Assembly (NCBI RefSeq): GCF_023746555.1
Contig: NZ_CP098755.1
Span: 1,578,001 to 1,642,000 of the forward strand
Length of the DNA stretch: 64,000 bases
Source of the DNA: Brevibacillus ruminantium
Lineage (GTDB): Bacteria; Bacillota; Bacilli; Brevibacillales; Brevibacillaceae
Reading direction: 5' to 3'
A program made the position numbers and the translations under genes. Below are positions 47,427 through 53,958 of this stretch, one piece after another. Under the pieces are notes generated by a model. It was not told the DNA's origin. It did not search any database and saw nothing but the letters and a program-made list of their open reading frames with translations. Position 1 is the stretch's first letter, and the number at the start of each line of letters is the position of its first letter.

Positions 47427-47753
47427 GTGTCAGCAGGTCAATTGCACTCCCTGGAGGAGTTGGATCAATTCGTCTCACAGGCGGGAAAACGGCTGTTGTT
47501 CAAGCACAGCACCATTTGTCCAATCAGCACGACGGCTCATGAGGAATTTTTATCCTTTCTACAGGAACAAGATGTACCGGCGGCGGTGATTCTGGTTCGG
47601 GAGGATCGTCCCGTGTCCAATGAAGTTGCTGAGCGCTATTCCATCAAACACGAGTCCCCGCAGATTTTTCTGCTGGAGGACGGACAGGTAAAATGGCACA
47701 CGTCGCATTGGAAAATCACCAAAGCAGCGATTGCCGAAGCCATTCAAGGCTAA
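47427..47753 (+). CDS. ytxJ: YtxJ, bacillithiol-system thioredoxin-like protein
   Basis: 108 residues from GTG 47427, the same length as B. subtilis YtxJ. Thioredoxin-like fold with a monothiol CPIS active site (HSTICPIS) and the cis-Pro strand HESPQIFLLEDGQVKWHTSH. The family is proposed to reverse protein S-bacillithiolation. GAGGAG lies 10 bases upstream of the start. Its position near aroA and ccpA mirrors B. subtilis. Confidence 0.9.
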   Translation: MSAGQLHSLEELDQFVSQAGKRLLFKHSTICPISTTAHEEFLSFLQEQDVPAAVILVREDRPVSNEVAERYSIKHESPQIFLLEDGQVKWHTSHWKITKAAIAEAIQG

Positions 47754-51963: not shown

Positions 51964-52983
51964 ATGCCGGTAACAATCTATGATGTGGCACGGGAAGCAG
52001 GAGTTTCGATGGCGACCGTTTCCCGGGTGGTAAACGGGAACCCGAACGTAAAACCGCTGACGAGAAAAAAGGTGTTAAGTGCCATTGAACGCCTGGGGTA
52101 TCGGCCCAATGCAGTCGCACGCGGTTTGGCCAGCAAAAAGACAACAACGGTCGGTGTCATCATTCCGGATATTTCCAGTTTGTTTTTTTCTGAATTGGCT
52201 CGGGGCATTGAGGATATTGCCACCATGTACAAATACAACATCATTCTTTGCAATTCGGACCAGCGTCTGGAGAAAGAGCTGCAGCTCATCAATACGCTTT
52301 TGGAAAAACAGGTGGACGGGCTTTTGTTCATGGGGGCAGAGATTAAGGAAGATCATCTGCAAGCGCTCAAAACAGCTTCGGTCCCGACCGTTCTGGCTGC
52401 GACCCGCGATGCGGACAACACGCTTCCGTCTGTTACCATTGATCATTTCCAGGCGGCGTATGATGCGACCAAAGAACTGATTGATCACGGACACAAACGT
52501 ATCGCCATGATTACCGGGCCGATGAATGACCCGCTCGGCGGTTTGATGCGTTACGAAGGCTACAAGCGGGCCCTGTCTGATTCCGGTTTGCCGCTGGACG
52601 AGTCTTTGGTTGCTCACGGCAATCTGTTCTACGAGTCCGGTCTGCAGGCGACTGCCGGATTCCTCGCCTTGCAAGAGCGGCCTACGGCGGTGTTTTCGGC
52701 AAGTGACGAGATGGCGATCGGTGCCATTCATGCCGCGCAGGATGCAGGGCTTCATGTTCCGCGCGATCTGGAAGTGATCGGTCACGACAATATCCGTCTG
52801 GTCGAGATGGTGCGGCCGCGTCTTACCTCTGTCGTACAGCCGATGTATGATATCGGTGCCGTTGCCATGCGGTTGTTGACCAAGTACATGAACAACGAAC
52901 AGGTGGATGAACATGTCGTGCTCCTGCCGCATCGTATTGAGTATCGGGAAAGCACTCGTCCGCGCGAGACGACATCCAGCTAG
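51964..52983 (+). CDS. ccpA: Catabolite control protein A
   Basis: LacI/GalR-family global carbon regulator, 339 residues. HTH and hinge: [68 protein letters not shown], as in CcpA; the Ser46-P-HPr-binding core and C-terminal [24 protein letters not shown] follow. CcpA with HPr-Ser-P binds cre sites, such as the candidate at 477 before hutU. GAGGG precedes ATG 51964. Placement near aroA, csoR and acu genes supports the identification. Confidence 0.95.
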
Positions 52984-53022
52984 GGAGAGTGCTGCACATG
53001 CTGCGGCAAGAGGAGGACAGCA

Positions 53023-53958
53023 ATGAAAATCGGAATAATCGGGGCCATGGATGAAGAGATCGCCCTGTATGTAGACAATCTGGCAGAAACGGTCACCGTG
53101 GAAAAGGCCGGGATTACGTATTATGAAGGCAAATGGGAAGGAACATCCGTCGTCCTGTGCAAATCAGGCGTCGGCAAAGTAAACGCCGCAGTTACCACAC
53201 AAATCCTGATTGATCAGTTTAAAGTGGACAGCGTGATCTTCACAGGCGTGGCCGGTGCCGTGCATCCGACGCTGAACATCGGGGATATCGTCGTCTCTAC
53301 AGACTGTCTCCAGCATGATATCGATGTGACGCCGCTCGGCTTTGCGCCCGGTCAGATCCCGTTCACGGAAAAATCGGTCTGGGAGGCAGACCCGGGACTG
53401 ATCCAGCTTGCCGTACATGCAGGCCGGGAGCTGGAGGCAGGGGTTCAGGTCACGACCGGACGCATTCTCTCCGGGGATCAGTTCGTTGCCGACAGAGAAA
53501 AGGTTCAAAAGCTGCACGAGCAGTTTGCAGCTCATTGCATCGAGATGGAAGGGGCGGCTGTCGGACAAGTCTGCGCTATGAACCAGACGCCGTTTGTCGT
53601 CGTTCGCTCCATGTCTGACAAGGCAGACGGGTCCGCTCATGTCAACTTCGCCGAGTTCACCAAGCTGGCTTCCGAACGCTCCTACGCCATCGTCAGACAG
53701 ATGCTGAGAGCGATGACCCCGGCGGTCATCGTCTACTCGACGAAGAATTGCATCGATTGTGACATGGTCAAGAACTGGCTGACTGCCAAGGGACTTCGTT
53801 TTGAAGTCCGAGATGTGATGACCAGCCGGGCGTATCAGGAAGAGGTCGAACGCTTTGGTTTCATGGGGGTTCCCGTGACGGTTGTCGGTGAAAAGGCCGT
53901 CAAGGGCTTCCAGCCTGTCGAATTGGAACAGCTGGTTGCCGGGCTTGGCACTAAATAA
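53023..53958 (+). CDS. mtnN: MTA/SAH nucleosidase fused to a glutaredoxin domain
   Basis: 311 residues. Residues 1-230 are a complete 5'-methylthioadenosine/S-adenosylhomocysteine nucleosidase: IGIIGAMDEE with Glu12, VAGAVHPTLNIGDIVVS, and the active-site CIEMEGAAVGQV (Glu174) and SMSDKAD (Asp199). From 233 a glutaredoxin/NrdH-like domain follows: VIVYSTKNCIDCDMVKNWL with Cys243 and Cys246, cis-Pro in MGVPVTVVGEKAVKGF. No linker stop or frameshift separates them. It links SAM by-product removal to thiol redox. ATG follows AGAGGAGG, 39 bp after ccpA, probably one transcript; a terminator follows. Confidence 0.93.
   Translation: MKIGIIGAMDEEIALYVDNLAETVTVEKAGITYYEGKWEGTSVVLCKSGVGKVNAAVTTQILIDQFKVDSVIFTGVAGAVHPTLNIGDIVVSTDCLQHDIDVTPLGFAPGQIPFTEKSVWEADPGLIQLAVHAGRELEAGVQVTTGRILSGDQFVADREKVQKLHEQFAAHCIEMEGAAVGQVCAMNQTPFVVVRSMSDKADGSAHVNFAEFTKLASERSYAIVRQMLRAMTPAVIVYSTKNCIDCDMVKNWLTAKGLRFEVRDVMTSRAYQEEVERFGFMGVPVTVVGEKAVKGFQPVELEQLVAGLGTK

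Follow-up and report, generated by a model that had tools for sequence, protein, structure and literature searches.

MTA/SAH nucleosidase (MTAN), which clears by-products left over from the methyl donor, and glutaredoxin (Grx), a small thiol-repair module, carry out two housekeeping jobs that are considered separate. The bacillithiol system offers a setting in which the two could meet. S-bacillithiolated proteins are substrates of BrxC and Bdr action (PMC10950700), and MetE and AroA are conserved bacillithiolation targets (PMC4360819). In Deinococcus, a column carrying a BrxC-like protein released 25 proteins on elution with DTT, an SAH nucleosidase among them; the list is long and unspecific and the finding suggestive only (PMC8301015). 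No report of MTAN bacillithiolation was found in the open-access literature searched. The same literature returned no publication on an MTAN-Grx fusion, and this architecture may already be listed by automatic annotation. Both halves are of known kinds; their combination, and the association of the Grx subgroup with brxC, appear to be undescribed. Here, we describe a gene of Brevibacillus ruminantium in which the two proteins are joined, and we present evidence that these jobs are probably physically coupled in the Brevibacillaceae, a family of soil bacteria.

The gene lies on the + strand at 53023-53958 of the window, the whole 64,000-nucleotide stretch of DNA that was analysed, and is a single unbroken frame from ATG to TAA encoding 311 amino acids. 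Residues 1-231 form an MTAN, and a Grx domain follows without an intervening stop:

53010..53016, + strand: ribosome-binding site GAGGAGG, seen in the sequence ahead of the ATG
53023..53715, + strand: MTA/SAH nucleosidase domain, residues 1-231
53056..53058, + strand: Glu12, the catalytic acid/base position of MTANs
53542..53544, + strand: Glu174, the ribose-binding position of MTANs
53617..53619, + strand: Asp199, equivalent to E. coli Asp197
53716..53724, + strand: short linker Met232-Thr-Pro, at about the position of the stop codon in six split relatives
53725..53955, + strand: NrdH-like dithiol glutaredoxin domain, residues 235-311
53749..53760, + strand: CIDC active-site motif with Cys243 and Cys246
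53872..53874, + strand: Pro284, the cis-Pro of a GVPVT loop
53995..54019, + strand: intrinsic-terminator-like hairpin of 11 pairs with a CTTTTTG tail (T-run), 3' of the fusion gene, closing the transcript

No Rfam element near the gene reached its gathering threshold. The initial annotation, made from the sequence alone, had proposed a complete nucleosidase and a complete dithiol glutaredoxin-like domain in one frame, and both domains, with the catalytic residues it had named, are where it placed them. The nucleosidase half exceeds the cut-offs of PF01048 (201.6 bits; cut-off 25.1), NF004079 (283.5; 169) and TIGR01704 (210.7; 73.8), and in Foldseek comparisons it matches solved MTANs with a TM(target) of about 0.9. 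Glu12, Glu174 and Asp199 are invariant in 33/33 fused proteins and in a 35-row alignment. An AlphaFold2 model built from a 35-sequence alignment (mean pLDDT 89.8) shows both folds formed, the last MTAN helix (209-231) passing into a Grx strand (235-239) within three residues. Among fused relatives the linker varies in composition and in length, from 3 to about 14 residues. An internal start at Met232 releasing a free Grx was considered and set aside as a general mechanism, as Met occupies this position in a minority of the fused genomes.

The Grx half scores 45.1 bits against PF00462 over residues 235-292 (gathering cut-off 22.9), and its nearest solved chains are glutaredoxins and NrdH. Both cysteines of the CIDC motif are invariant in the 33 fused proteins, with no exception among 21 aligned Grx rows that include stand-alone proteins; the cis-Pro is likewise invariant in all 33. 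Against the NrdH-redoxin model TIGR02194 and the YruB-family model TIGR02196 the domain scores 60.5 bits each, under the respective cut-offs of 85.75 and 88.55, and by sequence it is best placed as a member of an NrdH/YruB-like subgroup that fails both curated cut-offs. It retains a KG[FY]-x-P-like stretch, which we take to resemble the C-terminal motif of NrdH. The domain matches neither PF06491 nor PF11009, and its sequence is not that of a bacilliredoxin, the motif being CxxC rather than the CGC of BrxA/B or the TCPIS of BrxC. In the same genome (L001:1432-2630) a thioredoxin-reductase-like gene is immediately followed by one for a stand-alone NrdH/YruB-like glutaredoxin that shares 39% identity with the fused domain. 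Purifying selection is strong on both domains and holds both active sites: pairwise dN/dS (NG86) is 0.033-0.105 for MTAN and a similar 0.009-0.086 for Grx (13 usable pairs), values that are rough because several dS are high or saturated.

MTAN and Grx are contiguous in 39/39 Brevibacillaceae genomes examined, fused in 33 and encoded by adjacent genes in six. The fused state is fixed in the genus, where all 26 genomes carry it, and is present on the two deepest branches of the family. The initial annotation had named a stop near codon 232, or absence of the fusion from all relatives, as grounds for doubting its reading; the frame contains no such stop, the six relatives that do have one keep the two proteins as adjacent genes, and the remaining family genomes are fused. 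A sequencing or assembly artefact that deleted a stop codon can be excluded, the fusion being found in 33 distinct genomes with the reading frame conserved and purifying selection kept on either side of the junction; we attach practically no probability to it. The six split pairs lie on the same strand, with gaps of 0, 2, 3, 5, 5 and 18 bp, and three of them share one frame; in one of these (G030) an ATG directly follows the TAA. Near-abutting genes of this kind, three in frame, would be joined by loss of a stop codon.

Outside the family the fusion was not seen: of 101 sampled Bacilli genomes that lie beyond it and have an orthologous MTAN match (E<=1e-60), not one carries the fusion, nor does any genome of a Bacillota-wide sample or any of the plasmid records searched, in agreement with the earlier statement that the parts are separate in most bacteria. 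Both proteins are present in other Bacilli, at separate loci. A Grx at the end of a 790-amino-acid open frame (G260) proved to be of the usual kind, the stretch before it being open but unrelated in appearance. A record titled Anoxybacillus sediminis PCH 117 (NZ_CP064048.1; L044) contains the Brevibacillaceae fusion at 81% identity, in the same place as in a Brevibacillus genome (G010), and its name looks outdated or wrong. On a tree of MTAN plus CcpA at least three changes between the fused and split states are needed, the backbone near the split lineages being unresolved; either an early fusion was later re-split, or fusion occurred more than once. Among the matches listed for family genomes, a second MTAN (about 38-39% identity) appears only in the window's genome and two others (G009 and G023), so in most Brevibacillaceae the fusion is apparently the chief, or the sole, MTAN. 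The second, distant MTAN of the window's genome (38% identity; G000:C1:1842517-1843188, L008) has a LysR-like gene and an ORF resembling a transposase as neighbours; apparently missing from most family genomes, it was possibly acquired.

Two neighbours of the fusion gene bear on its interpretation:

47427..47753, + strand: brxC, a monothiol bacilliredoxin with a CPIS motif (PF11009, 111 bits), 5.3 kb upstream of the fusion
51967..52983, + strand: ccpA-like LacI-family regulator (Pfam LacI and Peripla_BP), directly upstream of the fusion

The ccpA-like gene has the same neighbourhood in unfused outgroups; where the locus was read, their MTAN lies mostly directly or a few genes behind it. The ccpA-MTAN neighbourhood thus predates the fusion, MTAN being old at this locus and Grx the newcomer. 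The stretch from brxC to the fusion gene holds aroA, and a CsoR/RcnR-type repressor gene (PF02583; 51541-51849) sits between aroA and ccpA. Given ytxGHJ-aroA-ccpA in B. subtilis, brxC near aroA-ccpA is an old arrangement, and its nearness in the window is for that reason weak evidence.

Close stand-alone relatives of the Grx half (57-65% identity) from two other Bacilli families, f4 and f33, stand directly behind brxC in 8/8 genomes read (L067, L107, L108, L110, L111, L115, L116 and L117), the two genes overlapping by a few bases (e.g. L067:2805-3376, L108:1492-2054 and L117:1813-2375, and five more loci). The BrxC of the window is 63% identical to the BrxC beside the stand-alone Grx in L067. 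The CxxC glutaredoxin of the f4 and f33 pairs is a candidate dithiol partner of BrxC. Related Grx genes of families f12, f20, f18, f30 and f31 do not adjoin brxC in the loci read. Those of f12 (L068, L118, L119, L120, L121, L124 and L125) have a CSTC motif and a conserved place beside phoU-like and ftsW/rodA-like genes. With 78 columns the Grx-only tree is poorly resolved, so it does not establish the brxC-linked group as the sister group. BshC, BrxC and a BrxA/B protein are encoded in 39/39 Brevibacillaceae genomes, and Bdr/YpdA is above cut-off in the window's genome; this gene content makes a working bacillithiol system very probable.

We tentatively propose, at a little less than even confidence, that the fusion protein is a bifunctional enzyme whose Grx half belongs to the bacillithiol/bacilliredoxin thiol-repair network and is tethered to methyl-cycle recycling. 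Judged by family membership and the intact active site, the N-terminal half would hydrolyse MTA, SAH and probably 5'-deoxyadenosine. For the C-terminal half we predict an active dithiol glutaredoxin from an NrdH-like subfamily, which would reduce disulfides or, if it is specific for bacillithiol, bacillithiol mixed disulfides. To account for its origin, a grx gene may have landed directly behind the mtnN of the ccpA locus in the Brevibacillaceae, after which in-frame loss of the stop codon would have joined reductase and nucleosidase in one chain. What the cell would probably gain is co-expression together with local thiol repair of the nucleosidase, LuxS and MetE, putative targets that share the same recycling route. 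The strongest form of this proposal goes further: the Grx half would be a new bacillithiol-linked disulfide reductase, a dithiol partner of BrxC, whose physical link to SAH/MTA hydrolysis would bring thiol repair and methionine/cysteine recycling together in one place, and throughout the family the bacillithiol system would have the activated methyl cycle as a direct client. We regard this extended version as unlikely.

The main rival to a bifunctional enzyme is a near-neutral operon fusion, in which the stop between two co-transcribed housekeeping genes was lost, each protein keeps its own job, and the tether is tolerated without cooperation. The split pairs 0-18 bp apart, three in frame, fit such an origin, as does a short linker whose length and composition vary; the repeated changes of state on the family tree suggest that joining or splitting is easy, and in other Bacilli the two proteins are encoded at different loci. 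Against this stands the fixation of the fused form throughout the genus and on the deepest branches, and the pair is never apart within the family, which suggests that co-expression, at least, matters. We consider a purely tolerated tether possible but rather doubtful. The initial annotation had instead suggested that the fusion might tie methyl-cycle flux to thiol redox state. In such a redox switch the state of Cys243/Cys246 would alter nucleosidase activity and, with it, both methyl-cycle flux and AI-2 output. The fusion itself is real, the linker is very short in the window's clade, LuxS is encoded in the genome, and an invariant Cys172 sits two residues from catalytic Glu174, all of which would suit a switch of this kind. 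The cysteines of the MTAN domain (Cys46, 95, 172 and 184), however, are common in unfused orthologues too, and as none is specific to the fused forms nothing points to a switch within the protein; the unconserved, variable linker argues against rigid allosteric coupling. Redox control of methyl-cycle flux thus lacks specific support, the suggested link to LuxS oxidation is speculation, and we judge a switch improbable.

Least probable among the functional readings, and in our estimate very unlikely, is an NrdH-type partnership, in which the Grx would take electrons from thioredoxin reductase for a radical-SAM enzyme or ribonucleotide reductase (RNR) while the MTAN clears inhibitory 5'-deoxyadenosine. 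Radical SAM enzymes are inhibited by this compound (PMC8102628), and the Grx half does score against the NrdH and YruB models. The NrdH-like tail counts in the same direction. These scores nevertheless miss both cut-offs, no RNR or radical-SAM gene was seen adjoining the fusion locus in the window, and the genome has another NrdH/YruB-like protein beside a thioredoxin-reductase-like gene. Gene context points to bacillithiol/bacilliredoxin chemistry rather than to a redox switch of the nucleosidase.

Gene fusions often flag functional links, and this one is family-wide with adjacent-gene counterparts in close relatives; it unites an enzyme of SAH/MTA recycling with a redoxin that has stand-alone cousins overlapping brxC. 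Should the bacillithiol reading be true, bacillithiol-dependent repair has a dedicated, so far undescribed dithiol reductase, and the methyl cycle is among its clients. The natural fused and split versions in the Brevibacillaceae make the effect of tethering directly testable.

Compared with known systems, the protein shares with MtnN/Pfs (NF004079, TIGR01704) the entire domain, the catalytic triad and a closely matching fold, and is about 40% identical to the solved enzymes, but solved and curated forms stop at about residue 231, where the fusion continues into Grx. Like the bifunctional MTAN/phosphatases known in Bacillota (PRK06698, PRK14697), it adds a second function to an MTAN; their partner is a phosphatase, whereas the fusion falls under the NF005213 and NF011286 cut-offs (190.4 vs 768 and 195.6 vs 260). 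The Grx half shares its size, CxxC, cis-Pro and a similar C-terminal tail with NrdH-redoxins and YruB-family glutaredoxins, yet it is under the cut-offs of both models, lacks an RNR/TrxR neighbour and is fused to MTAN. With BrxA, BrxB and BrxC it shares a proposed context, that of bacillithiol-producing cells, and relatives that adjoin brxC; unlike them it carries CxxC in place of CGC or TCPIS, and they belong to other Pfam families, of which the Grx half is not a member.
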